Part shown: one piece after another, positions 1 to 44,386 of the stretch | Position numbering within the stretch: the stretch's first letter is position 1 | Layout of the letters: each line of letters opens with the position of its first letter | DNA from: Symbiodinium natans | Lineage: Eukaryota > Sar > Dinophyceae > Suessiales > Symbiodiniaceae | Direction of reading: 5' to 3' | NCBI GenBank assembly: GCA_905221605.1 | Contig: CAJNDS010002495.1 | Coordinates: 213,214 to 277,213, forward strand | DNA length: 64,000 nt | The notes under the pieces: model-generated | What the model was told of the DNA's origin: nothing | The model's input: the letters and a program-made list of their open reading frames with translations, nothing else | The model's database searches: none | Made by a program: the position numbers and the translations under genes

Positions 1-6
1 GAAAAA

Positions 7-4208: not shown

Positions 4209-4232
4209 GTGAACCTGCGCCTCAGAGCCTAG

Positions 4233-5477: not shown

Positions 5478-5799
5478 AACTGTATGCTCAAGTTATCACT
5501 CACACCACAAGGCGTTGTCGTATGCAAATCGCAACATCTACGGAATCACAGCACCGTACAGCCACATTTTCAAGTCATGGTTGACTTCCTTCCAAAACCG
5601 CGTGCCCCGGTTAACTTGAGCTCTTTCAGCTCATCCGAGTGGACCGGCACACCAAAGCACCGCGAGCACCGGTGCAACTGCTCACATAATCAAACTTCCC
5701 CGCGAGGACCGGTGAATGCATAGCCGAGTCTATCCGGCTGCGTCACAAAGACACGACCCATTTGCCGAGTGATCCGGCTGCCCCTCAGTTGAGCCGGGC

Positions 5800-8267: not shown

Positions 8268-8304
8268 GGGATCGTAGATGCGCTTGCTTTCTACTGAATC
8301 CCTT
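8268..8304. repeat. Terminal hairpin repeat of element A, 5' end
   Basis: Second copy of the 37-bp core found at 7-43, in the same orientation. The copies agree across the core and diverge on both sides. It lies about 650 bp upstream of the recombinase start, leaving a long 5' leader with no supported gene. Confidence 0.7.
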
Positions 8305-10690: not shown

Positions 10691-11391
10691 CCCGTAACAA
10701 GTATGAAGCGTGCAGAAATTATCCTGCTGCTCCGTCGAAAGGGTGGGGCTGACTAAGTCGACGCTACAAAGGCTTGCTTGGCTGGTCCTGCAGCTGATGT
10801 GGGACAGAGGGTCCTTCACAGTTCCACAAAGCCGATCTTCGAGCTCTATTTCGAGCCTCCTGCAGTCTCTAAGTCACCTCCGAAACCTTTAACTAGTGAG
10901 TGCAAGCGCTTACGCTGCGTGAGTCCGGGCGTCCTCACATTGTGGGTCTCTCTAATTTGAAGAACCCATTGGCCAGCAGGACAGGTGCAAAGAGTATGCA
11001 ATTGCGCCACTGGAAGGATGGGGCTGGCTAAGTCCAACACTCCAAGGGCTTGCTTGCTAGTGCTACAGCTGATGACAGTGAGCAACCGACGGGATAGTCA
11101 CAGCCTACTTCAGGGTGGGTTGCCATCAACTCTGCCCGTGAAGGAACTGCCCACCGGCCAATCAAAAAGTGCACAACAGGGGAGGTACTGCAATGTTGCT
11201 GAAGCTTCTACAGGCAGTATTCGATGCCGTCCCCAATGAGGGAGCCATCCTCCTGGAGTGGGTAGTATGCTTTTTGGATGAGCGTATAGCCACTGATATC
11301 CTTGAACACCTGGCTGAAGGAAGAAACAACACACCTCGCCAGTGTAGATGGACAGGAAGGCTACTTGCGAGCAACGACAGTTGAGGTTGCC
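10691..11391. other. Unique spacer between the telomere-like arrays, with an internal duplication
   Basis: About 700 bp of mixed-composition DNA. The stretch 10708-10810 and the stretch 10983-11090 are diverged copies of each other (shared GGGGCTG/GGCTAAGTC and GGCTTGCTTG blocks), so the spacer contains an old ~275-bp-spaced duplication. Short frames on both strands show no recognisable domain. The clean edges against CCCTAAA DNA on both sides suggest an insertion into one older array. Confidence 0.5.
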
Positions 11392-12182
11392 AACCTAAAC
11401 CCTAAACCCTCCCTGAAAAAAGCCCTAGACCCTAGAAGACCGTGAGCCCTAAACATTAACAACCCTAAACCCTAGAAACCCTCAACTTCAAACCCCGAGA
11501 ACCCTAAACCCTGAAACCCCCTAAGCCCTTGACCCTAATCAACCCTAAACCCAAAAAACCCTAAGCCCTAAACCCTTATAACCCTGAGCCCTAGACCCAA
11601 AAACCCTAAACCCTAAAAACGCCTAAACTCTAAGCCCAAAAACCTAGAAAACCCCGAACCTCAAACCCTTGATCCACAAAAACCCTAAACCCTAACCTCT
11701 TAAAACGCCTGAACCCTAAACCTAAAACCCCCTCAGCCCTAAACCCTAAACCCTAAAAACCCCTAAACCCTCAACCCTAAAATCCCGAATCCCGAAAACC
11801 CCAAAGCCCCTGACCTAGTCAACCATAAACCTAAGCCATAAACCCCCTGAACCCTAAACCCTAAAAACCCTAAACCCTAAAACGCCTAAACTCTAAGCCC
11901 AAAAAACCTTGACCCACAAAAACTTAAACCCTAACCTCTTAGAACGCCTGAACCCTAAACCTAAACCCTGAACCCTAAAACCTCCTACACCCGCAACCCT
12001 AAAATCCTGTGAGCCTCAAACCCAAAGCCTAAACCCTAAGAACCCCGTAGTCCGAAACCCTCAAAACTCAAAGCCTAAGTGCTAGAAAGCACTAAACCCA
12101 AAAGAAACCCAATTACCCCAAAACCCTAAAACCTAAAAACCGCTAAACCCTGAACACCAAAAAAACCTAAGCTCTCAACCCT
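11392..12182. repeat. Interstitial telomere-like array 2 (degenerate CCCTAAA)
   Basis: A second block of about 790 bp of degenerate CCCTAAA repeats. Its first ~370 bp follow the same sequence of variants as 10014-10355 of array 1, including CAACTTCAA and CCTTATAACCCTGAGCCC markers, so the blocks derive from one another by segmental duplication. Confidence 0.85.
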
Positions 12183-15260: not shown

Positions 15261-15382
15261 CTACAAAACAGCTATCACGCCCACCACTGTTGGCATAAGT
15301 TGATCTCCTTGTCAAAACCTTTGGGTTGGCCTACGTCAGGAAGGCACAGCATCCCGGCGTCGAGCCGACCGACAAAGACAAT

Positions 15383-17930
15383 AGATGTTCTATCTGTCTT
15401 AGAGCCAGAGGAATCAGTATCTTGCAGCTCCAAGCACTATGTTCAAGATTGAAGAACTTCATGACCAGGTGCTAAACCGGACGGAGGATAAGTCACAGAT
15501 TGAACTTCAAGTCTGGTATCGTTTTGCTCCCGGGATTGCCTGGCAATAGCGTTAACTTTGTTGATCTTCCATATTCCATCAGCTCTAAGCAGCAAAGGAT
15601 GAAGTTTTTAGGATGCAATGTATCCTTAATCAGCATAGGCTCATGCATGCCTTTCATTCTGCCCCTGGAAAATATCAGTTTCAGAAAGTGATCCTGGAGC
15701 TCCGCCAGAAACAGTTAGCCATCTCAGATGAGCTCGCACTTCAGGCGGCAAGGTTCCACATCTATGGAGTTAAATCTTCACAGGAGATCTTTGCCTGGAA
15801 GGTAACTGCCCCTAGGAACACTTCGGATGTCTTTCTGCAGATTACTTTCCAGGATAGTACGTGGAACCCGCAGAAGATCCAGGAGTGTCTCAAGCAGGTT
15901 GCACTTCCTATCCAATACCAAGGTATTGCACATGTTCAAATTGGAGATGATGTCATTGTACCCGCCGCGCACGTGGTTGCGCATGTCTCCATTGCAGAAA
16001 TGCTTGTACACAATCCATACCTTGATCCCGTATGGCAGAGCGACTGTTCAACGGCTACAAGAGGTTGTTGATGCTCCAAAATGGGTCAGCAAACCTATCA
16101 ATCATATCTCTGAAAACCCCAGGGAACATTTCCTGAATTGCCACTCTGGGAGTGATAAAGTTGGGCAGGAAGGTTGATTCATGTCAGAGCAAGGGATGAA
16201 TATCAACCTGTCGCCAAACAGAGAATTGCCAGCATCCTGTGGCATAAAGACGACCTTGAAACACATTTCTTAATCCTCAACAAACAAGCGCCCTATGTTG
16301 TCATGACTGGCAAGTGTGAAGATGTACCAGAGCTTCAGAAGTTACAAAGCCTTCAGGCTTTTCTTCGGCGGAACTCTATCTTCCAAGATTGGGTGACACC
16401 TGATCATTTACCTAAGGTCCGCCAGAATGACGAAGATTTTAAGGCTGAACAAGGGATTGTCCAATATCTGCTTGTTCGAATTGTTGGTAAAACTGAACTT
16501 GAGATCCCCTTGATCCTCAGGAATGGGCACCTCCTTGTCTGTCATCCCGGGACTTCAGTGAACAAAAACGTTGTACTGTCGCTGCATCAAGGAGCACTTC
16601 TTTTTCTTCCACGATGTCACTCATGTGACATCTTGAAATTAATTGGAGCCAAACCGAGCGACATTTATGCATTCGACCTCTGTGCTAAAAGTAACCCTAA
16701 AACTGACCCTAAGGCTGGTCATACTAGCGCTCCTCTCATTCATAGCCGGGAATCAGGCCAACAAGATGTCAGTATTGAGCAATCGGACACTGCCCAGTGT
16801 CCGACTTTGCCCCATCAGCGACGGTCTGCTGCGCCGGCGACACGTAGAGAGCCCCAGGACAAGGAGCTGCAGGAAGTACAATCCTGAACCAAAGGTACTG
16901 AAGGTTCCAAGAAAAGGGGCAAGAGGCTGATAAAGGACAACTCGAGACTGTTCGAAGACGAAATACGTCCTTACGGTTTCAGGGTGAAGTTCCAGCTAAC
17001 GTTCGAGAACAAGTGCAACGATGTATTGCTGGATTATATTGCCCTGTCGCTGCGGCATACCCCATAATTGCTTGTGCGCAATGGAGCAAAGAAAACAGCC
17101 AGCACTATGCTCCTTTTCCCAAACAAGCTGCCCTTGTGCTGGCTGCGATTGGCTACAATGTCGGAGAAGCTGCAAGGGCAAAGCTTGACCATATCCTTGG
17201 TCGAGTCTACCTTGACTTGGCGAATAATACACCTTTAGAGCTTCCCGGCCACCGCACTCCTAGGTCCTAGGTTCCTTTGGGGAAATAGTTCGACATCACG
17301 CTGATCCAAATGAGGTTTCCATACCGCAACACGCAAGTGAACAAGTCAATGGTAAGGCAGGAAACACAAGTCAAGAGGCAAAAAGTAGGGACAGCCCTGT
17401 CCCTACCCAAACCTACTTAGCGCCCAACATTGAGACTGACTTTGGTCTTCCTGATCCCTCACATGCACATCTTTTGCCCGAATCTGAAACTAGCAAGGTC
17501 GGCCCCGACCTTGTCATAGTTAGAGGGAATGGACATAAAGGCCCAGATGATGACAAGCCAAGTACCGTTAGCTCCACTGAGCTGATACAGAAGTCAGAGG
17601 CTATCAAGGGGTATGAGTACCAAACAACGGAGCGTCAGAGTCCTGTTCCATGTTTGGGCTCTGCTCTCCCAACACAACCTGATAGCCCTACCCAACCGGA
17701 AATTCATAGCATTGCCACCAGTTCTGAAGATGACAGTGCACCTGAAACTACGAAGGCCAATGATAGTCATAACCCCAGTGCTGCTGGCGAACTAGGCCAC
17801 AGTCATTCATCAAGAACTAAGCCCCGAATAACTGGTTTATCTCAAGTCCTTAGAGCCAAGAAAGGACTTGTGAGAATTTTCCTGATACTTTCCACAGAAA
17901 TTAAAGAAATTCCAAACCAAACGTGAATTA
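15383..17930 (+). pseudogene. Degenerate partial copy of the large methyltransferase gene at 58574
   Basis: Fragments in changing plus-strand frames (15613-16071, 16174-16887, 17013-17270, 17474-17926) match, in order, the region of the 58.5-kb gene from about 59190 to 62220. Shared stretches include FHSAPGKY/FHTAPGKY, NPREHFLNCHSGSDK and HKDDLETHFLI. Visible lesions are: loss of the N-terminal ~205 residues, an in-frame-scale deletion of about 24 bp near 15677, premature stops, and a deletion of roughly 630 bp at about 17268 that removes the counterpart of 61090-61715. The copy stops before the methyltransferase domain. It is divergent, so it represents an old family member rather than a recent duplicate. 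Confidence 0.85.
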
Positions 17931-18133: not shown

Positions 18134-19639
18134 TCAGTGCTGTAGCAAAAATCTCTCGACTGGCAGCTTGCCGAAAGAAGAAAGCTCAGTTGCACCAACC
18201 ATGTGAAGGACTGTCTGTCCAGCAAACCTCGAAGGAGCATCGGCCACATTGGACCACGATGGGACTCGTGCATACCAACTCAAAGACGGGCATGAATCTT
18301 CCAAGGCGCAAACATCTCTCAGAAGACGATCCATAGAAGGTGAAGAGCTGTACCCTTTCACCAGTCCAAGTCGCGCAGATTCGTTGTCAATCCACATGAT
18401 CACACGTCTGTTTTTGAGCATGTCTCCCAAAGAAAGCTTGATGGCCCATACCACGAACAGCTCAATTTGGCAAATCAAATGATCGCCATCACCGACAGTT
18501 CGGCTCCACTCTTCCAACACCTCCTTTGGAACTTCGTCTTGAAAAACCGCGCCAAAACCTCTTGAGCCATCTAATACCACAGCACCGATGCCTGCTATTT
18601 TGTTCTCCCAGGAGCCATCAGTCCAAATGTGGACTACCGAAGGATCATGTTCAAGGCGAATCTCTCGCGGAGGCAGGACAGAAATTGCTTGAATGGCCCT
18701 CTCACAAAGATTGCGGAGAACATCGGCGCTTGGCTTAGCACCGGCATATACGAAGCGGTTCAGATCGACACAAACATGTTTCAGCGTCATCCCCGAGAAG
18801 AATCCAGCTGCAAATCTTAGAAGACCAAGCAATATTTGCCCATCATGCCTTTGCAGCGCACCACTCTCATGCACATCGCGAAGTCTCTCAGTGACCTTTT
18901 CAACTCGGGACGATTTGTTGGCCATCCTGAAGATACCATGATGCAGTTCAGATACGTCAGCCACGGTTCCCAACACTTCGAATTTGGCTGAGAACGGTAG
19001 GCCTTTATGGCCTTCTCCCGACCGAGCGTGCTTCCAGCCTAATAGGTCCAAAAGGCGAGAACACGCCCAATCCGCACTCTCAGCAAGGGATTCCGTAGAC
19101 AACAGGGGAAAATCGTCAAAGTAGCATGACGACGCCACATGCAGCATCTTGTTGAATAAGAAATGTAAGGAGCGACTGATTCTGAGAAAGCTTGGCACGG
19201 ACGCGCTGGCTCCAAACAAGAGTGAGTTGCTCAAAAAGAATTTTCTCTGTCCGCACGCATCATCCAAGAACACCACGGCCAGCCTTCTGTCTTTTTGGGA
19301 AATCGGTACCTGCTTATAGGCTTTAGACAGATCCAGAGTTTTTCCAACCCAAGGGACCGCAGAGCCCATCTCCTTCATCTTCCGCGCCACCAGTATGGCC
19401 ATCGCCGCCAGGTAGTCACAGTCTTGTAAAACCAACCGCATGGAAGGTCCAAAAGAATCGTTCAGCTGGGCATCACTCGCATTGTCAATCGGCCTGATTT
19501 TGCTCGACTGTTGCAGGCCAAACCGTCGAATCGCCACCCACTGTTTGCTGCCCAGGAGTTGAGTGACTTCTCTCTCCGAAAATGGCCCGTCGAGGAATCC
19601 ATCCTCATCCTCTTCTTGAGTATTCGAGAAGCTGGTCAC
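18134..19639 (-). CDS. Reverse transcriptase-RNase H of element B
   Basis: A 501-aa frame covering RT and RNase H without interruption. RT motifs: KIRPIDNASD, TLDLSKAYKQV, LLFGASASVPSFLR and the catalytic YFDDFP. RNase H motifs: HIWTDGS (Asp), ICQIELFVVW (Glu), MWIDNESA (Asp) and SNVADAPSR (Asp). This frame shows that RT and RNase H are one polypeptide in this family and so identifies the equivalent break in element A as a frameshift. The N-terminal start overlaps the linker frame to the right by about 35 bases, another likely frame lesion. Confidence 0.9.
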   Translation of the reverse strand: MTSFSNTQEEDEDGFLDGPFSEREVTQLLGSKQWVAIRRFGLQQSSKIRPIDNASDAQLNDSFGPSMRLVLQDCDYLAAMAILVARKMKEMGSAVPWVGKTLDLSKAYKQVPISQKDRRLAVVFLDDACGQRKFFLSNSLLFGASASVPSFLRISRSLHFLFNKMLHVASSCYFDDFPLLSTESLAESADWACSRLLDLLGWKHARSGEGHKGLPFSAKFEVLGTVADVSELHHGIFRMANKSSRVEKVTERLRDVHESGALQRHDGQILLGLLRFAAGFFSGMTLKHVCVDLNRFVYAGAKPSADVLRNLCERAIQAISVLPPREIRLEHDPSVVHIWTDGSWENKIAGIGAVVLDGSRGFGAVFQDEVPKEVLEEWSRTVGDGDHLICQIELFVVWAIKLSLGDMLKNRRVIMWIDNESARLGLVKGYSSSPSMDRLLRDVCALEDSCPSLSWYARVPSWSNVADAPSRFAGQTVLHMVGATELSSFGKLPVERFLLQH

Positions 19640-20252
19640 GCGACAGTACGGGCGGCTTCACATTGACTTCAAAGCAATCTGGGCAGGCACCAACTCCTGA
19701 CAGGTCGACTCCTTGCTTAAGTAGGTTTACCACTCCCAAATCATCGTAGTGGTACTGCTTGAGCAATTCTTCCCAGAGCAATATCTTTTTCCCTTTGATC
19801 ACTTTCTGCATCCATTGGGGCATCTCCGCATGAAGGGCATCCTCGCGTTTTTGTAGTTGCTTCCCCAAGATCTCCGCCTTGAGCAACGCCGTCTTTCTCT
19901 TCAAGAGCACATGTGAAGTGGAATTCTCAAGAACAAAGTCGATGGCTTCCAAGGTGTGTCTGCAAACAGGGTTCACAGTGTCAACCGGATGCTTAAGGGC
20001 CGTTGCTTCCTTCACCAAGCACCAACCTTGCAAACGACCTCTTGGCCCCCCGCTGCACCACCAGATTCCGGGGCCGAAAGAACTTTTGCGCCCTCGAGGG
20101 GCACTTTGGAGCACGGCAGGTCCACTACGCGGTCGTACTCGGAGATCAAGGGGGTTGCCTTCCGGGACTGCCGGCCCTGTGCCGCCAAAGTGAGCGCACG
20201 AGCGGGCAAGACAGCTGTAAACACCAGGCCTCGCGTCTGAAGATCTGCGCAA
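19605..20252 (-). CDS. RT N-terminal linker region of element B
   Basis: A 215-aa frame matching the linker that lies between methyltransferase and RT in A and C: a CR..LEAIDFVLENSTSHVL-like segment, a run of Lys/Glu-rich helix with LWEELLKQYHYDDLGVVNLL, and GVDLSGVG. Comparable helices occur in A (LLLEKIASSIGWVDMGVF) and C (LLKRIAESLDWPDKQ). Function unknown; it probably connects methyltransferase and polymerase in one polyprotein. Its N-terminal part is read through the overlap with 20012-21094 and may be out of frame. Confidence 0.65.
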   Translation of the reverse strand: MRRSSDARPGVYSCLARSCAHFGGTGPAVPEGNPLDLRVRPRSGPAVLQSAPRGRKSSFGPGIWWCSGGPRGRLQGWCLVKEATALKHPVDTVNPVCRHTLEAIDFVLENSTSHVLLKRKTALLKAEILGKQLQKREDALHAEMPQWMQKVIKGKKILLWEELLKQYHYDDLGVVNLLKQGVDLSGVGACPDCFEVNVKPPVLSRDQLLEYSRRG

Positions 20253-21094
20253 AGAAGATCGGCCCAGCGCTCGACCAGAAGGAGGGGGTACTGCGCCTCG
20301 AGGTGTGTGTCAAACGTCCAGCCGGAAGTTGACCAGCGCACTTTCCAGGGGGCGTGCTCATGGGAGCCGGAACAACGGCGAGCCAGGGCAAGCAGAGCCC
20401 GGCAATTGGTGAGCAGCTTAGTGGTTTTGGGTCTTCGTCCGCCATGCTCGCAAGAATCGAAAACGACCTCGTACAGCTGGGCATGGTGAAAAGGAGCGCG
20501 GGGATCGCCTCGGGCCAGGTGAGCGAGCACAGCCCAAAACCAAGAGTTCTCCGGGTTCTCAATCGTGAAGTACACGCCAGCTTTAAGGCACCAATTCAAA
20601 AGCCGCCAGCAAAACCGATACAGTCTGTTTGCAGATTGCACACGTTCGTAGCTGATACTGCCCCGCGGCAACGAAGGCAACCCTAGAGGATGTAGGCCGG
20701 AACGTAGCGGCTGAGGTTGCGGTGCCCCCTGTCGCACCAGGAACTTAGGCACAGGACGCCCCCTAGCACGACTCGCCGTACCACATGGTGGTCCCAAGTG
20801 TAGATACACAGGGTGCGTCACCTGAAGCTGTTCAAGAACAAGGTTCTGCGACTCGTCGGAAGAGAGGTCCAAGCGCATGGTGGGGACCAATGGTTTGTTC
20901 GGCAAATGATCCACCGCAAGGGCTTGGAAACCATTGGCATGCAGCGCTGCGGACAGACTGCCACTCCCGCTAAAGAGCTCCCGTCGGAACCTCAGGCGTT
21001 GGGAGGCTGTCTGGGCGAGGAGGGTCGTCGAAGCGTCGGCAGGGAGCATGAATCCCAAACCATGAGCGCTGAGAATCAAGTTTGCGCGAGTCAC
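20012..21094 (-). CDS. C5-methyltransferase-like domain of element B
   Basis: A 360-aa frame with the clearest methyltransferase motifs of the three elements: RELFSGSGSLSAALHANGF (motif I, FxGxG type), ALAVDH, HLGPPCGTASRARG (motif IV with PPC), a PLGLP segment, FTIENPENSWFW (ENP, in the place of motif VI ENV) and RCSGSHEHAPW. These are hallmarks of cytosine-C5 methyltransferase-like folds. I see no obvious motif IX/X, so the domain may be short or divergent. Acting on element DNA, or on RNA-DNA intermediates, is inference. A conserved Cys-rich tail (TNCRALL, RCSGSHEH) is shared with A. Confidence 0.75.
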   Translation of the reverse strand: MTRANLILSAHGLGFMLPADASTTLLAQTASQRLRFRRELFSGSGSLSAALHANGFQALAVDHLPNKPLVPTMRLDLSSDESQNLVLEQLQVTHPVYLHLGPPCGTASRARGRPVPKFLVRQGAPQPQPLRSGLHPLGLPSLPRGSISYERVQSANRLYRFCWRLLNWCLKAGVYFTIENPENSWFWAVLAHLARGDPRAPFHHAQLYEVVFDSCEHGGRRPKTTKLLTNCRALLALARRCSGSHEHAPWKVRWSTSGWTFDTHLEAQYPLLLVERWADLLCADLQTRGLVFTAVLPARALTLAAQGRQSRKATPLISEYDRVVDLPCSKVPLEGAKVLSAPESGGAAGGQEVVCKVGAW

Positions 21095-21665
21095 GAACTG
21101 AAAAAGCGATCAAAACCACTCGGCGACCTTTGTTGGGCAGAGTTGCATGCCTCACTTTGCGTGCACAAAAGCATGCTGGGCCAGGTATGACGGGTAACAG
21201 CCGCCCTTTCAAAACCACCTCCTCGTGCTTAAAGTCCACGGAGCCACTTGAGTCCTCGATCCAAACTTCCCCTCCGGAGAAAATCCCAGGAGGGCCCAGA
21301 CCGAACACAGCATTCTCACTGCTGGGGTCGTTATGACTGTCTACGTGGGGGAATGTCTCCACGCCTTCCATGATGACGATCGAAGAAAAGGTGAGGCCAG
21401 GGCATCTTTGTTTAACAAAACGTGTCATGACCTTAGTGCTTGTCGCAAAAGTTGTACAAGAATTCCTCAGTCCAACCATTCCGCCATGGACCCACAAGCC
21501 AGTTCCGAAAGCTTTACCTTCGGTAGCAGCACGGCCCTCTGTAGGGGGCTTGACTGTAGGCAGAAGATCAAAAAGCTGTAAGAGATGGGCCGAATCGTTG
21601 GACTCCTTTCTCATGCACTGACACGCGAACATCTCGGCAGCATGGCAGACCTGTTTATCCGCCAC
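20970..21665 (-). CDS. 2OG-Fe(II) oxygenase-like domain of element B
   Basis: A 231-aa frame holding the whole domain: an N-terminal helix (LLQLFDLLP), GKAFGTG, VGLRNS, a strand ending in SIVIMEGVETFPHVDSHND (HxD), FSGGEVWIED, a distal His in KVRHATLPN and the 2-oxoglutarate-type Arg in GRRVVLIAFS. Spacing from HxD to the distal His is about 70 residues, within the range usual for this fold. Known relatives of the fold include TET/JBP base dioxygenases and AlkB; which branch this belongs to cannot be said by eye. It lies directly before the methyltransferase frame, which overlaps it by about 125 bases. Confidence 0.7.
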   Translation of the reverse strand: MADKQVCHAAEMFACQCMRKESNDSAHLLQLFDLLPTVKPPTEGRAATEGKAFGTGLWVHGGMVGLRNSCTTFATSTKVMTRFVKQRCPGLTFSSIVIMEGVETFPHVDSHNDPSSENAVFGLGPPGIFSGGEVWIEDSSGSVDFKHEEVVLKGRLLPVIPGPACFCARKVRHATLPNKGRRVVLIAFSVRDSRKLDSQRSWFGIHAPCRRFDDPPRPDSLPTPEVPTGAL

Positions 21666-21725
21666 ATCCGCCTCGAAGGACGGCTTAGTTTCCTTCGGAG
21701 AGTGCGTCGCGCTCCCCGGACACCA

Positions 21726-22031
21726 TCACTGCGCAGCTTTGGTGCAGGCGTGGCCTGGGTGGTTACCACCACATCCTTTCCACCAACAAACATGGAAGCC
21801 ACGTCCACACCGATTCTTTTTGTTGACTTTGAAGCCACAAGTGCCGACATTGTAAGCAAAGCAAACCGGTTGATCATTCACCTTGGTCTGCGCACCCTCG
21901 GGGACCTGGATGCCACTGCCTTTGCCTTTGCCTTTCCGGCCACGGCCCACGGCCTTTTCCTCGTCCGCGCCCCCGTCCTCGACCTCGACCCCAATCGCCA
22001 TCCTCGTCAAAGGCGCGCTTGGAACTGCCAC
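21726..22031 (-). CDS. Gag zinc-finger segment of element B (displaced frame)
   Basis: A 101-aa frame with a basic GRGRKGKGKGSG tract and a finger starting QPVCFAYNVGTC, then CGRGFHVCWWKGC and HPGHAC. The pattern C-x7-C-x9-C-x3-H plus a second Cys/His cluster matches the end of element A Gag. The main Gag frame loses this part because of a frame change in the Gly-Arg tract near 21900-22030. Confidence 0.7.
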   Translation of the reverse strand: MAVPSAPLTRMAIGVEVEDGGADEEKAVGRGRKGKGKGSGIQVPEGAQTKVNDQPVCFAYNVGTCGFKVNKKNRCGRGFHVCWWKGCGGNHPGHACTKAAQ

Positions 22032-22938
22032 CTTGAGGGAGATGAGTCAAGAACTGGAGGACCTCGGGACTGTCGCTGAGGCGCTTGATCTCTTTGTCTA
22101 AGGGTTTAGGCTGACCGGGCTGCGGCTGAAGCTGCCCCAACAAGTTTGAAGCTGCGAGGGTGAACATGTGCCGATCAGCTGCCACAATCTGGGTCAAAGC
22201 GATGGGGTGATATCCTGGTGGAGCAGGGCGTTGAAGGACCACGTAGAGTTTGTGCGACCACCCCTCCAGGGTAGCATAGGAGGCCATGCCGGCAATGTCA
22301 AACGCGAGGCTCCTTCGTGACCACGCCTGCCGCAAGGTGAGCTCGGACCCCGTATCACAGGAGATCAAGTCCTCGCCCTTTGCAGCGATCTTCAAGTTCC
22401 CATCCGCATCTATGGCCAGCGTCTTGTCCGGCTTGCTTGCCTGGATCTCTTGTTCTCTGCTGGTGAACTTCCCTGGTGGAATGTATGCTAAGACTCCCGT
22501 TTCCAGCATTTCCACGATCTGGTCGACGATGCGGTGTGAAGGCGTAGTTTGTGGGTCAAAAATGACTCCTGGCAGCCGTTTCTCTTGCGCCTTTTGTCTA
22601 GAGAGACGCTCCGCGGTTGGCATCTTTCTGGTCAGGATCTCGGTAGTCGGCTCGACTCTTGTCTTCATGTCGTTGATGCCCAGTGCCTGGGATTCAAAGA
22701 GGATCCTTCGCAAACAAGACAGCTGATGGTGGTTTGGCGCAGTTGCGAAGACATTCCTAACCCAGTTCTGAAAATCCTCCTCCGAAATCGAGGTGGGGGA
22801 TGCGCCAACTGCAAAGGCCATGGATCCGAATGTTTTGTATCCCTGACCCGTCAGCTCATCGAAGACGTCGTTGTTGAGGCCGACCTTGTCGCACCGTTCT
22901 TTGAAGGCTGCCTCGGAATCTAGCGTCACCCCTGCCAT
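21874..22938 (-). CDS. Gag-like protein of element B
   Basis: A 354-aa frame with the same N-terminal fold as A and C (AFKERCDKVGLNNDVFDEL, then a SMAFAVGAS segment), VEPTTEILTRKMPTAERL, AADRHMFTLAASN and a Gly-Arg/Lys tract (GRGRGRGRGRGKGRG). It then reads out of frame into a non-conserved tail. The true C-terminus is the zinc finger at 21726-22031. The nearby codon count of the repeated GR tract makes slippage a natural cause of the break. About 540 bp separate it from the recombinase; that gap (22939-23480) shows no supported gene. Confidence 0.75.
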   Translation of the reverse strand: MAGVTLDSEAAFKERCDKVGLNNDVFDELTGQGYKTFGSMAFAVGASPTSISEEDFQNWVRNVFATAPNHHQLSCLRRILFESQALGINDMKTRVEPTTEILTRKMPTAERLSRQKAQEKRLPGVIFDPQTTPSHRIVDQIVEMLETGVLAYIPPGKFTSREQEIQASKPDKTLAIDADGNLKIAAKGEDLISCDTGSELTLRQAWSRRSLAFDIAGMASYATLEGWSHKLYVVLQRPAPPGYHPIALTQIVAADRHMFTLAASNLLGQLQPQPGQPKPLDKEIKRLSDSPEVLQFLTHLPQGGSSKRAFDEDGDWGRGRGRGRGRGKGRGPWPERQRQRQWHPGPRGCADQGE

Positions 22939-23480
22939 GGCTGCGTCCTACTTTTTTGGGAGACCTAGCTAGCCTCTCTCTTGGATCCTGGAGTGTTTCC
23001 AGGTAGAGCAGTCTGCGCGAAGTTCACAATCAGAGCTTCCGATGAAACTCACCTTCATCGGTACAAGTCAATCGCATTCAGCAGGAGGCAAACTTACTCG
23101 CAACGACATGTTCGTCCTTCCTGGCTTTCTCTGCTTCCAGCGGATGAGCTTTCCGCTGGTAGTGAGATTTAACTGATCCAAAATCGTGTGGAAGGATCGG
23201 AACACAACTTCAAGAAGTGTCGCATGTAGCACAGGAAAGGATCTAGCCCAGATTTTGCGGGTCACAGATTCCCGCAATGTTTCGGCTGGGATTCCGGCAG
23301 ACAAGATCTCTGCCGGTCGCCGTCCATCCACATCACAGCACGTGCAAATGTCAGTAAGCAGAGAGCAAATGAAGTGCACCAGCTGTGCATGCTGTGTACG
23401 TATACTAGCGCAACCGCCGTTCGCTTCCGGCCGGGTGAGTTTCCCGACCGGTCGGCAACTCCCCATTTCTTTCAGTCGGA

Positions 23481-25241
23481 TTAGCGCCTGCGTCCATCCC
23501 TAGCACGGCTGCACTGGATACAGCAGTCCGGATCTTCCGCCGCTGCACCAGCCTCTTCAAAAGCGTTATAGGCGCATGTCTTAACTCGACCACAATAAAA
23601 CTCGACGCCACCAGGACCATCCTTCAAGCAATGGACAATTCCAGAAACCCGATGGACGAAGACCTCTCCAGCCTGAACAGGCTCATCAAAAGGGGCCCGG
23701 CACCTGCGTGCAGGATTCAAGTTCCCCGCAGCCGGTACTCTATGGGCCTCTTCGCTGCCGGACGACGAGTCCTCGGATCCCTCGGAATCTCCCATGGCGC
23801 CAGATTGATCATCATCACAAAGCCCATCAGCTCGCCTGCTACGCTCCGCGCGTAGAGACTCCTCTCCTCCCGGTGCGTCAAATTCATTGGCCACACGCAA
23901 AATGCGCTGCACCTCAGAAAGGTCAGGCTCATAACGCCCACTCTGGATTGTCCGGAACATCGATAGGATCTTCCCGTACAGCGACGTATAAGATTGCCTG
24001 GAATAGGTCAGAGGGCTGCGATCCTTTGGTTTCACGTGGTGCCCAACCAAACGCTGCTCGGCACTGGTAAACTTCACAACAGAGCTCCGCGCCGTCCAAG
24101 TGGGCAATGTGGCTTTGCACGAGTGAGAGCTAATGCGTTGCAAAGTTTCTTCAGGGTGTTGCTTCCGCATCAAAAAGTCCCATAACCAGATCGTTGCTTC
24201 TGATGAAGACATTGGCACTGCAGCCCAATCACCAGTCGCCTCTCGCCATGACGGGAGTGTGAAATCATCCAGCGTCAACCTACACTCTTTCCGTGCCGCC
24301 AGCCACGCCGAGCCCCAGGCGTGCTTGATGCCCGAGCCTATCGCCACATATGGGAGGAAGGTAGTTTTTGCATCCTCTGTCATGGTGGTCTTTGAAGAAA
24401 GACCCATAGCGACAATCAGCACCACACATCCGTCCATTTGAAGCTCAATGGATCTGAGCCGCTGCGCGTCACTCCATCGAGCTCCCGAATGCAAACAAAA
24501 CAACAGCTGCCCAGAGATGCAGGCCTCATATGCAACAGCTCCACAGCAAAAATCTTCCAGATCCGCAGTCATTGCCACGGTAAGTTCAGATGCCTGCTTC
24601 TTCGGCCGCTTTTTAAGAAACATATCCTGTGCCACACCACGTACTCTGGCACTAAGGACTTGTTCAGGCAGCATATTCCGGAAGATTGCCACAGAATGAA
24701 GAAAACGAATCGCCTCCAAAAAGTGCCTGGCAGAGGTCGGTCCTTGCTGATCTTCCCTGAGGGTCTTGACGTAGTCGTAGATCACCTGTTCGCTAGCGGA
24801 CCAAGGAGACTCACACCCATGATTGAGTGCCCATAAGAAGTATTTCTCCAGCGATCCACATCTCTTTTGCAAAGTAGAAGTTGCCTTGCTCCTGAAGGAA
24901 TCAGCAAACGACTGCCTCAATTCTTGGTCATCCATCACGCGGGTTGCCAAAGTCGCCAGGCTTTGACCCATCCTAGTAGCATCCAGATCGTACATGATCA
25001 TGTATTTGAAACGTTTCAATGCATGCACTCGTTGGTCAGACTCCTCACGCAAGACAGGCAACCTCTGCAGCAGTCTTCGAGTGGTCCCTAAAATCTTAAC
25101 AGGAGCAGACACGGGATGGGTGTTGGCCTCGCAAGACTCGAAAACATCACGCATTCCAATAAATGTCATACTTTCTCGCCCGCGAAGATCCCAGACTTGA
25201 TTATAGCTGCCCCAACCAGAACAAAAATCTTTCATCCGCAA
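23481..25241 (-). CDS. Tyrosine recombinase of element B (open frame)
   Basis: A 586-aa frame with a complete catalytic set: SGARWSDAQRL (Arg), SSHSCKAT (His-x-x-Lys), LVGHHV (His) and SPLTYSRQSY (Tyr nucleophile). An N-terminal helical core-binding-like part precedes it. After the Tyr there is an IQSGRYEPD helix end, an acidic Ser/Glu-rich linker, and a C-terminal domain with FVHRVSGIVHCLKD, FYCGRVKTC and CCIQC. This tail is shared with A and C. It would integrate element DNA through recombination of circular cDNA. The first residues overlap the start of the 322-bp direct repeat, so the true start may be the internal Met in MTFIGMRDVF. Confidence 0.88.
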   Translation of the reverse strand: MRMKDFCSGWGSYNQVWDLRGRESMTFIGMRDVFESCEANTHPVSAPVKILGTTRRLLQRLPVLREESDQRVHALKRFKYMIMYDLDATRMGQSLATLATRVMDDQELRQSFADSFRSKATSTLQKRCGSLEKYFLWALNHGCESPWSASEQVIYDYVKTLREDQQGPTSARHFLEAIRFLHSVAIFRNMLPEQVLSARVRGVAQDMFLKKRPKKQASELTVAMTADLEDFCCGAVAYEACISGQLLFCLHSGARWSDAQRLRSIELQMDGCVVLIVAMGLSSKTTMTEDAKTTFLPYVAIGSGIKHAWGSAWLAARKECRLTLDDFTLPSWREATGDWAAVPMSSSEATIWLWDFLMRKQHPEETLQRISSHSCKATLPTWTARSSVVKFTSAEQRLVGHHVKPKDRSPLTYSRQSYTSLYGKILSMFRTIQSGRYEPDLSEVQRILRVANEFDAPGGEESLRAERSRRADGLCDDDQSGAMGDSEGSEDSSSGSEEAHRVPAAGNLNPARRCRAPFDEPVQAGEVFVHRVSGIVHCLKDGPGGVEFYCGRVKTCAYNAFEEAGAAAEDPDCCIQCSRARDGRRR

Positions 25242-25522
25242 CGGTATAACTTCTGCCCGCAGGCGAGCTACAGAGAATTATCCAACATTCAATCTCGAGG
25301 GGAAACGCGTTGAACTCAGCATTAAAAATATCGGATTCCCAAATCACGCAAATCTAACTCATCACACTTCACACTCTAACACATGCGCACTTTTTCTTCA
25401 TCGGCACGCCGAGAAAATGGGGAAAGTACGTCATGCCACTTTTTAAGTGGCCTGCATTATGGCACATGTAGTGCCATCGGCCCTCTGACACAACTGATGT
25501 GTCGGCCCCGTTCATCTCCCCC
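25201..25522. repeat. 322-bp direct repeat, copy 1, with four short hairpins
   Basis: Nearly identical (about two visible mismatches) to 25790-26111. It contains a TCGGC-AC-GCCGA hairpin (25401-25412) and three 17-nt hairpins: 25435-25451 (GCCACTT/AAGTGGC), 25460-25476 (TGGCAC/GTGCCA) and 25487-25503 (GACACA/TGTGTC). It overlaps the 5' end of the element B recombinase frame. Such ends resemble split direct repeats or recombinase sites of tyrosine-recombinase retroelements. Confidence 0.85.
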
Positions 25523-25789
25523 GGGTTGGGAGGGTGGGAAAGAAATTTCCTTGCTTTGCTGACTGCTGAGCCAAGCTCTGGAATGCAAGCGAAATTTCAA
25601 TCACAAATTTAAACAATCCTGAACAACACATGTCCCAAGAATGTGTCATGCATACAAAAGCAAAGTGCTGTTGAATATTAAAATTCCAAACTTTTGTTCT
25701 GGCCCAAAATTGCTTAAAGATACTCTCCGACAGACAATTTTGGTTTTGGTGCAACTATAAGGCAACGTCATGCAAGCATGAAGTATAGC
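25523..25789. other. 267-bp AT-rich spacer between the direct repeats
   Basis: Single-copy in the window, visibly more AT-rich than its surroundings, with no supported gene. Its edges coincide exactly with the ends of the 322-bp repeats. Confidence 0.6.
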
Positions 25790-26111
25790 TTATAGCTGCC
25801 CCAACCAGAACAAAAATCTTTCATCCGCAATGGTATAACTTCTGCCCGCAGGCGAGCTACAGAGAATTATCCAACATTCAATCTCGAGGGAAAACGCGTT
25901 GAACTCAGCATTAAAAATATCGGATTCCCAAATCACGCAAATCTAACTCATCACACTTCACACTCTAACACATGCGCACTTTTTCTTCATCGGCACGCCG
26001 AGAAAATGGGGAAAGTACGTCATGCCACTTTTTAAGTGGCCTGCATTATGGCACATGTAGTGCCATCGGCCCTCTGACACAACTGATGTGTCGGCCCCGT
26101 TCATCTCCCCC
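25790..26111. repeat. 322-bp direct repeat, copy 2
   Basis: Second copy of 25201-25522, with the same hairpins at 26024-26040, 26049-26065 and 26076-26092. It ends only 21 bp from the RNase H stop codon of element C, so C's own 3' untranslated region has been lost or replaced at this junction. Confidence 0.85.
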
Positions 26112-26131: not shown

Positions 26132-27232
26132 TCAAGTGCTTTCAAGAGTGCAATAGGTCATCGGACATTTGACCTCGTCGCGCAAGAACTCCCCTAGGTA
26201 CCGCAGTTTCTCCCACTCACCCCGGGAGGGGGCATCGGAAGGGTTACTTTCACTGGCAACCCTGTGGAACCATGCTAGGCACGGCGCCGCCTCGTCCGCA
26301 GCCTCTAGTTGCATGAGCAGCTCACGCCAGGAGGTATCAGCCGCATTCCCGTTGATACACGAGCTGTGGACACCCGTATGGTCAACGAAGAAGAAGACCC
26401 TGTTCCCTCCTAGTGCCCTGGACCACAAGACCCTGGCTAAGACCACGGCATACAACTCAACCTGGCCTATGATGTGCTTGCGCCCCCGTGCCCACCGTTG
26501 GATCAAGGCCTCAGGAACTTTGGCACCAAAGACACGGGGCTTCGACCCCGGAGCGATGAGAACGCCTCCCACAGCCGCATGAAAGGAACTTCCACAGGGA
26601 TCGCATGCTCCATCGGTAAACACGAGGACTGGGGCAGATGCAGGGCTCGCTGAAAGCTGACGGGGAACCCCCTTCAAAAGGCGAGCACGTAGCAAAGCAA
26701 CCGCATCGAACTGTGACTGGCTCAGCTCCACACTGAATGCAGCCGCCCGCTCCAGGTTCCTCAAATCGGAAATGGCCAGACGGCCCGTGCGTCCCAACAT
26801 CTGCGACTCAAGAAATTGCAATCTCCCCAAAAGGGAGGGCACCTCGCGAACCAGCACCTTTCGATCCCTCAACACGCCTGCAAGTGTCTCACACATCGCC
26901 GCAGCCCGTTCCTGTTTGTTTGACACGCACACGTGCCCAAAGGACGGGTCACTTGTATCCAGGACAACTCCCAGCATCTCGCTAGCAGAGCTGAAAGGCT
27001 GCTCTTTGTCGCGCGATAGCGTGAACCCAAGAAGGTCCATGACCGAATGCACTGCATTATCAGTGCCCCCACTAAGCATCGCAGGAGCCATCGTTGGGTA
27101 GTCGTCATAGTAACATGCTGCTACCACGCCGACTTCCCAAAGGATCCGCTGCAGCAACAAGGACACTCGATTGAAGTGCATCACCGAAGCCGACGAACCG
27201 AAGGGCAAGGTGTTGCACGGAAATGCATACAC
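26132..27232 (-). CDS. RT catalytic region and RNase H of element C
   Basis: A 366-aa frame that begins in the RT at LPFGSSASVMHFNRVS, continues to the catalytic YYDDYP box, and then covers RNase H: LVFTDGACD (Asp), IGQVELYAVV (Glu), FFFVDHTG (Asp) and SNPSDAPSRG (Asp). It is preceded in the overlapping frame by the RT N-terminal half, so a frameshift near 27200 splits the polymerase just before the FGSSAS motif. Confidence 0.88.
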   Translation of the reverse strand: MYAFPCNTLPFGSSASVMHFNRVSLLLQRILWEVGVVAACYYDDYPTMAPAMLSGGTDNAVHSVMDLLGFTLSRDKEQPFSSASEMLGVVLDTSDPSFGHVCVSNKQERAAAMCETLAGVLRDRKVLVREVPSLLGRLQFLESQMLGRTGRLAISDLRNLERAAAFSVELSQSQFDAVALLRARLLKGVPRQLSASPASAPVLVFTDGACDPCGSSFHAAVGGVLIAPGSKPRVFGAKVPEALIQRWARGRKHIIGQVELYAVVLARVLWSRALGGNRVFFFVDHTGVHSSCINGNAADTSWRELLMQLEAADEAAPCLAWFHRVASESNPSDAPSRGEWEKLRYLGEFLRDEVKCPMTYCTLEST

Positions 27233-28692
27233 CGGTCGTCGGTAGGGTTTTTGAGAATCAGGACTGCTTTCGGCTTCTCTCCCGGGTGAAGAGGTAGTTG
27301 TTTGTAAGCTGCTCTAAGGTCATAGGTCTTCGTGAGTGGACGCAGTTTCTCGCGATCCGCCCAAACCTTGTGCAACCTGCCCTCGAGGGACGTACCGTCA
27401 CTCAACACAAACTTCACCCAACCGGAACCCAAGGCACACCGGAATACCTGCAGGCAAACCCAGCAAAGCTCATCCAGTGCTTTCAGGCTAACACGCTCGA
27501 AACACCCAAAACAGGAGTTCACGCCGGATTCGGAGAAGTCGTCGATTGGGCGAAGCTTTCCTTGCATTACACTGAAGCGGCGACAAGGCGACCACCCTTG
27601 CGGGTACACTTCTTCGAGCTGCTCTCTAGTGTAAGGACCATCAAGCCAAGCCTTTGATGTTGCATCTGCTTCTTCAAGAGTGACGTTCCACAGCTCTTGC
27701 GCATGCTCACCACAAACTTGGCTGGACACCTTGTCCCACAGAGAATCCCTCAAGATGGCCGCACCTTCCCAAAAATCTTGTTCGGAGCTAAGTGCCGGCT
27801 TCTCGTCAGGATGGAAGACCCCAGTGCACGGCATATAGCCAGTGAGTTTGAACCCCACCTCCAAGTCGTGATGAAGTTGCTTGTCAGGCCAATCAAGAGA
27901 TTCGGCAATGCGCTTAAGAAGGCACAGGCGCTTGCCTCCCAAGACACGCCTCACCGAAGGTTCAAGTTTTTGCTTCAGGGCACGCTCCTCGCCCTCAAGC
28001 TCAACAGCCCATTGTCTCCAGAGCCTGATTTTCTCCAGTCTCCGTCGCATAACCACTACCGGGCCTTGCACAAGGAGGTCGAAGAGCACACGAACCAGTC
28101 CGTCCGGAAGGGCCCTGGCAGTATCAAAGGGGTGATCAAGCTGCTTTGCCTCACGCACGAAAACCTCTGGAGATCGATACACACCGAAAGTGTAAAACCG
28201 ACAAGAAGCTGCATCCAACTGGAGCTCATCTCCCAGCTCACCTGCGCGGGTGTCGGCACCACCCCTTTCAACGGACACACGCAGCAGTTTAGACTTGGCA
28301 GGCACCTGCAACCAAGGTTTTTCCAAGCAGTACTTAGCATTCAGCGGGGGGGCTTCGGAGGAAGCCACTGACACGGTATGCGCAAATTCGCCGATGACAG
28401 GCGCGAAACGGCGACCTCGGGGCTGAACCTGCCCTGCTGCACGGGCAGTAGCTAGCTCAGAAGTCTGAAGCTTGCTCGGAAGAAGCTGACGCTCGGCAGC
28501 GACGTCATCGATGCAGGCAACAAGCCGTTCACAGAGAAGTTTTGGGTAGGCGGCCTCCAAAGCTGTGGCAGATGTGCCGTCCACAACCCAAGCATCATGC
28601 TTGGGGCAGCCCGGGCAGGGCCCGCTGAGACGACCCAAAACTGGGTGGGAGGACAGGAAAGCTGTAGCCTTCTTGCGTGTAGAACCATGCAA
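27181..28692 (-). CDS. RT N-terminal half and linker of element C
   Basis: A 503-aa frame starting near the end of the methyltransferase region (CPGCPKHDAWVVDG, comparable with CSGSHEHAPW in B), through the long helical linker (VYRSPEVFVREAK, FDTARALPDGLVRVL, LLKRIAESLDW), to the RT: QGWSPCRRFSVMQGKLRPID and KTYDLRAAYKQLPL. It loses frame immediately after KNPTDDRCMHF, where the neighbouring frame takes over with LPFGSSASV. The linker is similar in length and content to that of element A. Confidence 0.83.
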   Translation of the reverse strand: MHGSTRKKATAFLSSHPVLGRLSGPCPGCPKHDAWVVDGTSATALEAAYPKLLCERLVACIDDVAAERQLLPSKLQTSELATARAAGQVQPRGRRFAPVIGEFAHTVSVASSEAPPLNAKYCLEKPWLQVPAKSKLLRVSVERGGADTRAGELGDELQLDAASCRFYTFGVYRSPEVFVREAKQLDHPFDTARALPDGLVRVLFDLLVQGPVVVMRRRLEKIRLWRQWAVELEGEERALKQKLEPSVRRVLGGKRLCLLKRIAESLDWPDKQLHHDLEVGFKLTGYMPCTGVFHPDEKPALSSEQDFWEGAAILRDSLWDKVSSQVCGEHAQELWNVTLEEADATSKAWLDGPYTREQLEEVYPQGWSPCRRFSVMQGKLRPIDDFSESGVNSCFGCFERVSLKALDELCWVCLQVFRCALGSGWVKFVLSDGTSLEGRLHKVWADREKLRPLTKTYDLRAAYKQLPLHPGEKPKAVLILKNPTDDRCMHFRATPCPSVRRLR

Positions 28693-29764
28693 GGAAGCTT
28701 ACTAAGGTAAGTCTCTGCACCAAGGATTGGAAGCAGGGCAAGTGCCAAAGCCACGAGTGTAATGGATTTTCCACCGAGAAATGGACGCAAGCATGGTTGG
28801 ACAGGAGCCATTGGCAAAAGGCAGCCGTCTCCCGATAGATAGCGTTGGCGCTAGCAACCCGAGCTGCCTCAACCTCGGACAGATCGGGCCGCCCCCAAGG
28901 GTGGTGAAGGGACCTAAGCGGGCGCGGTCCCTTCCCAAGCTCGCGTGCACGGCTGGCTGTGCCGCACGGCGGTGCGATATGCACCCACACAACGTCGCGC
29001 GTCTCAACAAGACGCCTGATGAAGTCCCAGGTGCGTGACAAGCGCAAGTCCAGCTGCAGCACATGAACATAAGGTCTATGCTTACTGTGGCCCCAATCCA
29101 CCGGCACGACCGCATACCCGGCCTCTCTGGCTACGCAAGACAGAAGGGCAGAGCCCGCACACAACTCGAGCACAAGGGGGCGAGAAGTCGACGGCGACAG
29201 CAGACGAGATGAGTGTTGCCCGGGCGGTGCAAGAGGGCCCGAGGCCTCTGCCAAGGGTTGGGCTCCTGCAGCTGGAGCGACACCTGGCGGGGTTGGCAGG
29301 TTTGGACTGGGACTAGCTTCTAAGGGAAACCCTAAGCGCCGCAGCTCTGCCTTAGCGGGGGGCTTTAGCTTTTCCACGAAACGCACCGTGAAACCTACCA
29401 AGACAAGGCGGCGGCCCTGCCATGGGAGGACGCAGTGCGCATTCTCGCTGGCCGACAAGAGCAGACACGGGCCATTCCAGGGAACGGGGCCACCGATGAC
29501 ATCGTGGCCTTGAAACTCACGGACTTCGGAGCCCTCACCCTCAACCCAAAGACAACCTCCCTGAAAGGCGGTTAGGGGAGTGATTATATTAGGGAAGGGC
29601 GCATTTTGCAGGTCCTTATGCATGGAAGAGGGGCTCTGATCAAGCACGGCAATGGAAGAGAAGACACACCCGGGGGCCGCATGTTTGAGCCATGCCACAA
29701 ACAAGGCAGTGGATGCAGGGTACTTCCCAGTCGTCGTCCGCACGCCGACGACTCCGCCATGCAC
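28595..29764 (-). CDS. 2OG-Fe(II) oxygenase-like and C5-methyltransferase-like fusion of element C
   Basis: A 389-aa frame encoding both domains as one polypeptide. Oxygenase part: VGVRTT, SIAVLDQSPSSMHKDLQN (HxD), GGCLWVEG, ENAHCVLPW (distal His) and GRRLVLVGFTV (Arg). A Pro-rich linker follows. Methyltransferase part: LVLELCAGSALLSCVAREAG (motif I), AVVPVDWG, VHIAPPCGTASRARE (PPC), and HFSVENPLHSWLW (ENP). The fusion shows that the two domains are naturally one protein in this family; the splits in A and B are lesions. The frame ends out of register before the Cys/His tail. Confidence 0.75.
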   Translation of the reverse strand: MHGGVVGVRTTTGKYPASTALFVAWLKHAAPGCVFSSIAVLDQSPSSMHKDLQNAPFPNIITPLTAFQGGCLWVEGEGSEVREFQGHDVIGGPVPWNGPCLLLSASENAHCVLPWQGRRLVLVGFTVRFVEKLKPPAKAELRRLGFPLEASPSPNLPTPPGVAPAAGAQPLAEASGPLAPPGQHSSRLLSPSTSRPLVLELCAGSALLSCVAREAGYAVVPVDWGHSKHRPYVHVLQLDLRLSRTWDFIRRLVETRDVVWVHIAPPCGTASRARELGKGPRPLRSLHHPWGRPDLSEVEAARVASANAIYRETAAFCQWLLSNHACVHFSVENPLHSWLWHLPCFQSLVQRLTLVSFLAWFYTQEGYSFPVLPPSFGSSQRALPGLPQA

Positions 29765-29982
29765 AAACGCGCAGTGAAGCTGCTGCCTTCAGCAGCGCGG
29801 GGGGATGGTTCCTTTGGCAAGGCGTCGAACAGGCGCACAAGGTCTGAAGCATTCAGCTCACGATGGCCTGCCAAATCCCAAGCCAAGTTCTCAGCCTGAT
29901 CAAGATCATGTGGTTTTGCACCCTGAGGCACCTGCCGCGAGTGACGGTCTCGCGACAAGTTTTGAGACCGTATCCGAAGCAT
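29584..29982 (-). CDS. N-terminal part of the 2OG/methyltransferase protein of element C
   Basis: A 132-aa frame whose ASDLVRLFDALPKEPSPRAAEG stretch (split here as ASDLVRLFDALP and a following AAEGSSF) matches the LLQLFDLLP and GKAFGTG blocks of B. The part left of about 29760 is out of frame; the domain continues in 28595-29764. Confidence 0.6.
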   Translation of the reverse strand: MLRIRSQNLSRDRHSRQVPQGAKPHDLDQAENLAWDLAGHRELNASDLVRLFDALPKEPSPRAAEGSSFTARLCMAESSACGRRLGSTLHPLPCLWHGSNMRPPGVSSLPLPCLIRAPLPCIRTCKMRPSLI

Positions 29983-31139: not shown

Positions 31140-31286
31140 CTCTCAAGAGAGAACTCTCACATGGGCGTAGAGCACGAACATCACATTCATGGACATAGAG
31201 CACATGCAAAAAGGGGGCGCAGCAAGTGAGCAAATCGTGGGCATCACACACACCCTTTATGCACTATGCACAAGTGAAATCTCACA

Positions 31287-44345: not shown

Positions 44346-44386
44346 CCAAGCTGGCCACATTTTGTGTGCTGTCACTACTACCTCGC

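Follow-up and report, generated by a model that had tools for sequence, protein, structure and literature searches.

A predicted 2-oxoglutarate-Fe(II) oxygenase ahead of a C5-cytosine methyltransferase-like domain in the Pol of DIRS/PAT-like retrotransposons of Symbiodinium natans

Can a retrotransposon carry, in one protein, a methylator and an oxidizer of DNA bases? The question is raised by a 64-kb stretch of the genome of the dinoflagellate Symbiodinium natans (assembly GCA_905221605.1, 759 Mb in 2543 contigs; contig CAJNDS010002495.1, positions 213,214 to 277,213; hereafter the window), in which three minus-strand retroelements, A, B, and C, were read. In the direction of transcription, each consists of a tyrosine recombinase-like open reading frame (ORF), a gag-like ORF, a 2-oxoglutarate (2OG) oxygenase-like domain, a methyltransferase-like domain, reverse transcriptase (RT), and RNase H. 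An earlier note on this DNA had described an HxD..H..R domain followed by a PPCGT/ENP domain and RT-RNase H, and these motifs were located at the places it gave on the minus strand of all three elements (Table 1). C5-methyltransferases inside the Pol of dinoflagellate DIRS-like elements have been published (de Mendoza et al., 2018; PMC5890265; this and the other articles cited by accession are drawn on in excerpt). Here, we consider what the two domains are, which elements carry them, and what they may do.

The domains were modelled with AlphaFold2 (AF2), and the models were compared with the Protein Data Bank (PDB) using Foldseek and VIA. The first pol domain was predicted to adopt the double-stranded beta-helix of 2OG-Fe(II) oxygenases. 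Foldseek ranks 1 to 4 were TET2 (best: human TET2), with prolyl hydroxylase and AlkB close behind. VIA scored a bacterial 2OG oxygenase at 11.4, TET2 at 10.9, a prolyl hydroxylase and NgTET1 both at 10.4, and AlkB at 9.9. The second pol domain was predicted to have a C5-cytosine methyltransferase fold. The structural check suggested in the earlier note returned both folds, and the lack of a double-stranded beta-helix match, which that note had set as a refutation, was not seen. Neither domain matched a Pfam family over the cut-off, and the NCBIfam and PHROG scans of the oxygenase likewise gave no named family over cut-off. The weak Pfam matches of the oxygenase were Tet_JBP and 2OG-FeII_Oxy_3, and none was of the AlkB family; Tet_JBP was listed for 1/30 members in one scan and 1/10 in another, and its best scores, 15.6 bits (P0062) and 14.1 bits (L038), were below the cut-off of 34.9 bits. 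A search of the S. natans genome with PF12851 gave no match, but the controls likewise gave none, so absence is not implied. PF00145 (DNA_methylase) had no match in the window pieces, ten homologues, or four whole Pols. The PDB sequence search returned a single chance protease match (E 1.5) with the oxygenase profile and weak methyltransferase matches only with the two-domain profile. The oxygenase is at most a candidate member of TET/JBP proper.

The diagnostic residues were then read in the copies. The oxygenase motif layout in A, B, and C is HxD..N..H..GRR, ahead of the domain with Pro-Cys-Gly and ENP. Among the hidden Markov model (HMM) matches covering each column, window pieces included, the residues were kept in 26/27 (H), 28/29 (D), 28/29 (N), 32/34 (second H), and 32/33 (R), and the iron and 2-oxoglutarate residues rank among the most conserved columns of the oxygenase. 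All five positions were kept in 73 of the 74 own-genome copies read across them. Because every copy was recovered through its resemblance to an intact protein, and several have the same sequence, decayed copies are under-represented in this sample. The first 30 loci, three duplicates being dropped, comprised 29 with the oxygenase (L016 is without it; L011 is window element A); 28 kept all five residues, and L009 kept the first four, the R lying beyond the piece. Of the next 46 loci, 45 kept the five residues, the exception being L066, in which the first H is R. Three oxygenase-bearing rows (C1808, C1412, and C1974, the last two with one internal stop) were left out of this count. The diagnostic residues are also kept in window C. 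Loss of HxD, H, and R from most genomic copies, which the earlier note had named as fatal to its proposal, was not seen in the copies read. In the methyltransferase, the catalytic Cys (motif IV Pro-Cys) was present in 26/28 and ENP (motif VI) in 25/28 own-genome loci containing this domain, three duplicates again being dropped; in L011, ENP lies in another frame.

Homologues were collected by a protein search with the element A piece (57 proteins) and a profile search (at least 82, the best 8000 word-sharing candidates being scored), giving a union of 107 proteins. Domain HMMs detected both domains in 26 of them, the oxygenase only in 6, and the methyltransferase only in 75; with two window pieces, 28 sequences carry both domains in this order. 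In six of the 26 (P0005, P0007, P0010, P0060, P0073, and P0101), the oxygenase is represented just by its latter part or its end. The single-domain proteins are in many cases cut pieces, and some are genuine sister elements. At least 120 residues precede the methyltransferase in 27 proteins, and an oxygenase match was found there in 23 of these. The named relatives are from Symbiodinium: P0058, P0059, and P0085 (CCMP2592), P0072 (CCMP2456), and P0073 (S. pilosum). No relatives of P0001 were found in a scan of viral contigs. Searching the S. natans genome with P0001 gave at least 99 rows (85 of 1836 candidates scored), of which 58/99 were stop-free through both domains (counted by eye, from query residue ≤83 to ≥421). 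The 77 oxygenase sequences (75 loci and window B and C) fell into 15 groups at 70% identity. With 28 two-domain sequences, 58/99 open rows, and residues kept over 15 groups, the domain pair is far beyond chance. L034 and L090 are methyltransferase-only sister elements; L034 consists of recombinase, gag, an in-frame TGA, a stretch with no recognizable domain, methyltransferase, RT, and RNase H.

For selection within families, each variant was counted once as synonymous or nonsynonymous. Between families, nonsynonymous and synonymous rates (dN/dS) could not be compared informatively, since synonymous sites have reached saturation (pS 0.53-0.84). Three families, namely the largest, A, and C, had enough variation for the oxygenase test. 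In the largest (30 copies, 27 distinct), the oxygenase had 127 synonymous and 38 nonsynonymous variants (omega approximately 0.11; binomial p 5e-40). In family A (8/12 copies, 7 distinct), the synonymous/nonsynonymous counts were 23/7 for the oxygenase, 18/5 for the methyltransferase, and 2/9 for the linker joining the two domains (oxygenase vs linker, Fisher p 0.0012). In family C (2/3 copies), they were 10/1, 5/4, and 5/7, respectively. The linker serves as a built-in control: in families A and C, the oxygenase is under selection, but the adjoining stretch is not. In L17, where each region has two to six variants, the counts were 1/1 for the oxygenase and 2/3 for the methyltransferase, a ratio indistinguishable from neutral. 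The L22 methyltransferase had 11 synonymous and 9 nonsynonymous variants. Zero or one variant was found in the L12 family (zero in its oxygenase) and in the L22 oxygenase and linker (3/5 copies used, identical). Pairwise pN/pS was 0.34 for the L17 oxygenase, 0.84 for the L17 RT, and 0.15 for the L22 oxygenase. The counts for A, C, and L17 were made without L009, L010, L011, and L021 (family A), window C (family C), and L027 (L17). The suggestion that diverged copies keep the key residues under selection is thus borne out by the 73/74 copies, the 15 groups, and the synonymous excess in the oxygenase. Taken jointly, it is nearly certain from models and sequence comparison that the first pol domain belongs to the 2OG-Fe(II) oxygenase superfamily by fold and residues, that the second has a C5-methyltransferase fold, and that the oxygenase evolves under purifying selection.

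Intact relatives occur elsewhere in the same genome, and their order is repeat, tyrosine recombinase-like ORF, gag, UGA, oxygenase-methyltransferase-RT-RNase H, and repeats. ORF lengths in L031, L032, and L033 are 593-658 aa for the recombinase, 412-445 aa for gag, and 1340-1394 aa for Pol (stop to stop), and near-identical direct repeats (99.6-100%) enclose these ORFs. The direct repeats are terminal in element A, L031, and L033. In L032, the 5' repeat is A1 and the 3' repeats are B1-A2 (its B2 is past the sequence read), and window C terminates in a B1-A2-B2 block (26111-25201); the split arrangement A-coding-B-A-B is obtained from L032 combined with window C, and was also found in L034. The tyrosine recombinase motifs R.R.SD, GTHS.K, LGYH, and a later [VI]Y were recognized by eye in 4/4 fetched ORFs. 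Pfam gave Phage_int_SAM_1 for the recombinase of B only, under cut-off (E 0.017), with no match for the four ORFs or for the pieces of A and C. By eye, the [FY]DD box and the RNase H motif VFTDGA were present in 4/4 open Pols; RVT_1 matched three of them (E 2.2e-3, 3.5e-6, and 2.8e-6) and the B ORF 18134-19657 (E 1.9e-4), all under cut-off, and L032 had no match. By these sequence features, the elements are DIRS/PAT-like retrotransposons, with a probable tyrosine recombinase.

How is Pol expressed? After the zinc-knuckle-like end of gag comes one in-frame TGA, beyond which Pol stays in the gag frame. The stop was TGA in 14/14 families read, which are 13/15 oxygenase groups and the methyltransferase-only family with at least one copy each (L001, L012, L014, L017, L022, L081-L088, and L090). 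The two other oxygenase groups are those of L028 (too degenerate, with TAA and further stops) and L066. The base after TGA is C in 11/14 families; CTA follows in seven (L001, L012, L014, L022, L067, L038, and the methyltransferase-only family) and CGG in two (L078 and L057). UGA-CUA and UGA-CGG are readthrough-promoting contexts. Ten copies of family A gave an identical junction. In family L17, four copies have TGA CAG, L019 and L030 have another TGA, and L027 has TAA behind disturbed sequence. Strong RNA structure directly 3' of the UGA (z < -2.5) was predicted in 4/14 families vs 0/14 control stretches; being limited to four families, it is no general feature of the junction. From its sequence, the junction is a candidate signal for programmed UGA readthrough.

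We propose the following account, to which, as a whole, we assign a probability of about 50%: DIRS/PAT-like elements with the two folds described, UGA readthrough, methylation and oxidation of the complementary DNA (cDNA), and disguise from silencing. Since pol lies in frame behind gag with a single UGA between them, Pol would be made by programmed readthrough as a minority Gag-Pol product, which would be packaged with the RNA inside Gag particles. Cytosines in the element's own cDNA would be methylated by the methyltransferase, either while reverse transcription proceeds or once it is complete. The oxygenase would oxidize a pyrimidine 5-methyl group on this cDNA, converting 5-methylcytosine to 5-hydroxymethylcytosine (5hmC) or thymine to 5-hydroxymethyluracil (5hmU), the latter being an abundant base in dinoflagellate DNA. 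So marked, the cDNA would be taken for host DNA and be protected from nucleases or from silencing that depends on methylation, up to its integration by the recombinase. For the substrate and role of the pair taken separately, we would put the odds slightly below even. More tentatively, the Pol may be a two-step base-hypermodification machine fused with RT that writes 5hmC or 5hmU onto cDNA, and could be one source, or the evolutionary source, of dinoflagellate 5hmU.

Several observations weigh against this account. For the readthrough step, the Candida element Tca2 is a warning by analogy: its gag-UGA-pol junction alone gave no readthrough in yeast, although pol is expressed from the gag-pol RNA (PMC2194720). 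The coupling of the two domains is also not tight. In L012 and L013 (one family), PFG and EAP replace PCG and ENP next to an intact oxygenase, and L034, in which PPC is PPH (His replacing Cys), has no oxygenase. The pair is therefore not obligatory, and in some families a mark made by the host may be the oxygenase substrate. In a tree of 78 rows, 12 were classed as lacking the oxygenase and 47 were unclassed; 24 inner branches stayed open, and 12 changes of the oxygenase label were required. This suggests that the oxygenase was gained or lost repeatedly, with most tree rows unclassed.

The relatives without oxygenase (L034; 12/78 rows) also bear on another explanation, in which the fold serves nucleic-acid binding or particle assembly and no catalysis is required: some elements can do without the domain. 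For such a purely structural role, the iron and 2-oxoglutarate residues, which are kept in 73/74 copies and are among the most conserved columns, would be unnecessary, and we regard this explanation as very improbable. The domain might instead be an AlkB-like demethylase that strips N-methyl groups (such as those of N6-methyladenine, m6A, or 1-methyladenine, m1A) or alkyl damage from the RNA of the element or from its single-stranded cDNA. An AlkB-type domain of orchid Gypsy elements acts in this way, and the AlkB domains of plant RNA viruses probably do so as well. We hold this to be unlikely, given that TET2 ranks first in Foldseek, that the weak Pfam matches are Tet_JBP and 2OG-FeII_Oxy_3 and none is AlkB, and that the oxygenase adjoins a C5-methyltransferase, whose product is not the usual AlkB substrate. 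The same Foldseek ranking and the location in Pol beside a base methyltransferase and RT make a P4H- or AspH-like hydroxylase of prolyl, lysyl, or Asp/Asn residues of Gag or a host factor rather improbable.

The frameshifted window copies and the lack of a Pfam family over the cut-off for the two domains could be taken to mean that the motifs arose by chance in decaying repeats and mark no real domain. This explanation was ruled out by the confident fold predictions, the residues kept over 15 groups, omega of approximately 0.1, and pol frames of more than 1300 aa.

The window copies themselves are all broken (Table 1). In C, both domains share one frame (28595-29788), which starts just inside the oxygenase and exits before the end of the methyltransferase; in B the domains lie in two different frames, and in A they spread over several ORFs, with frame changes inside the oxygenase and inside the methyltransferase. 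C is truncated, and no second copy of its A2 repeat was found near its 5' end within the window. The 3' repeat of A presumably continues past the window edge.

Table 1. Features of elements A, B, and C in the window (positions in the 64,000-nucleotide stretch).
Feature	Position	Strand	Basis or remark
A: 3' terminal repeat	1-43	-	98% to 8262-8304
A: methyltransferase end, RT, RNase H	228-3001 (ORFs 1025-3001, 228-1100)	-	RVT_1 E 6e-4, under cut-off
A: 2OG oxygenase-like and methyltransferase-like domains	2908-4232 (frames 3570-4232, 2908-3903)	-	ORFs, domain HMMs, motifs
A: oxygenase motifs	PHRD 3787-3798; LHLTEP 3595-3612; GRRVVL 3571-3588	-	
A: methyltransferase motifs	APPCGT 3139-3156; VENP 2954-2965	-	ENP in third ORF, 1025-3001
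A: in-frame TGA, then CTAG, between gag and pol	4233-4235	-	
A: gag-like ORF with zinc-knuckle-like end	4236-5492	-	ORF
A: tyrosine recombinase-like ORF	6201-7619	-	Intact-frame relative L031
A: 5' terminal repeat	8262-8304	-	
B: pol linker and RT-RNase H	18134-20309 (ORFs 19605-20309, 18134-19657)	-	
B: C5-cytosine methyltransferase-like domain	20012-21109	-	ORF, domain HMM; other frame than oxygenase
B: methyltransferase motifs	GPPCGT 20777-20794; IENP 20552-20563	-	
B: 2OG-Fe(II) oxygenase-like, first pol domain	20970-21725	-	ORF, motifs, AF2 model (pLDDT 83.7), Foldseek/VIA
B: oxygenase motifs	PHVD 21339-21350; RHATLP 21135-21152; GRRVVL 21111-21128	-	
B: in-frame TGA between gag end and pol	21726-21728	-	Likewise arranged in close relative L088
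B: gag-like ORF	21874-22947	-	Zinc-knuckle-like end in other frame, directly before TGA
B: tyrosine recombinase-like ORF	23481-25277	-	Phage_int_SAM_1 E 0.017, under cut-off
C: 3' repeat B2	25201-25522	-	Repeat comparison
C: 3' repeat A2	25523-25789	-	In L032 same sequence also at 5' end (A1)
C: 3' repeat B1, 322 bp	25790-26111	-	99.4% to 25201-25522; 96% to L032
C: methyltransferase end, linker, RT-RNase H	26132-28698 (ORFs 27181-28698, 26132-27313)	-	Intact-frame relative L032
C: 2OG oxygenase-like and C5-methyltransferase-like domains, single open frame	28595-29788	-	ORF, domain HMMs, motifs
C: oxygenase motifs	MHKD 29612-29623; AHCVLP 29423-29440; GRRLVL 29399-29416	-	
C: methyltransferase motifs	APPCGT 28958-28975; VENP 28763-28774	-	
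C: gag-like ORF	29853-31142	-	ORF
C: 5'-truncated tyrosine recombinase-like ORF	31287-32213	-	ORF; compared with L032

Other features were noted in the window. On the plus strand, 58562-64000 contains a 1392-aa ORF whose frame resumes after one stop; Dnmt3-like motifs (LSLFDGCG, GSPCQDLT, and ENAGSM) were seen by eye, and the 1392-aa part had no Pfam match. It is possibly of the published SymbioDIRS-Dnmt3 type. The region 15319-17244 is a 67% DNA relative. A 12.2-kb unit is present twice in tandem at 34088-58433 (99.6% identity), with a 149-bp satellite in each copy. The ORF 34135-35052 in the first copy matched the DDE_1 transposase family (E 2.8e-8), and both units contain 90-nt inverted repeats (44382-44645 and 56563-56826; 94% complementary, 84 nt between arms). 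The region 9726-12180 is degenerate and internally repetitive, with strong strand asymmetry at 10001-12000 (GC skew -0.40, AT skew 0.35).

Among the closest published systems is SymbioDIRS-Dnmt3, likewise a dinoflagellate DIRS-like element whose Pol combines a C5-methyltransferase with RT and whose repeats have the A-coding-B-A-B arrangement; its separate tyrosine recombinase ORF corresponds to the recombinase-like ORF seen here (PMC5890265). Its methyltransferases were found by PF00145 and cluster with Dnmt3, whereas the elements described here have no PF00145 match and have a 2OG oxygenase ahead of the methyltransferase. According to the same article, retrotransposon methyltransferases can methylate CG de novo, and self-methylation of retrotranscribed DNA was suggested; the SymbioLINE methyltransferase gave no such de novo methylation in yeast (PMC5890265). 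The main text of that article contains no word starting with TET, oxygenase, or hydroxymethyl. 2OG oxygenases on mobile elements are known from fungal TET/JBP-bearing transposons, but these are DNA transposons and Helitrons, and no C5-methyltransferase partner is described for them in the excerpt of PMC12730594. An orchid Ty3/Gypsy retrotransposon carries a 2OG-Fe(II) dioxygenase with conserved cofactor residues, an AlkB-like m6A demethylase; it differs in being a long terminal repeat Gypsy element with an AlkB-type domain, and no methyltransferase is described in the excerpt (PMC9289625). Phage hypermodification systems pair a C5-methyltransferase with TET/JBP, the two reaction types proposed here, but as separate proteins and with glycosyltransferases (PMC12730594) in place of one fused retrotransposon polyprotein. 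In the dinoflagellate Breviolum, most repeats are enriched in 5hmU, Maverick elements above all, and the authors consider that it may have a role in repeat control (PMC11071213); the main text of that article has no word starting with JBP or dioxygenase, and no DIRS or Ngaro. Literature searches on 2OG oxygenases, TET, or AlkB in DIRS or dinoflagellate retrotransposons, preprints on bioRxiv not covered, gave no example of a retrotransposon in which a 2OG oxygenase and a C5-methyltransferase are fused. Each component thus has a precedent, and their combination in one Pol was not found in print.

The finding ties transposon biology to the question of how and why dinoflagellates put 5-hydroxymethyluracil on repeats, and the fusion provides a specific protein for expression and assay. 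Some DIRS elements scored as methyltransferase-free by Pfam may carry a cryptic one.

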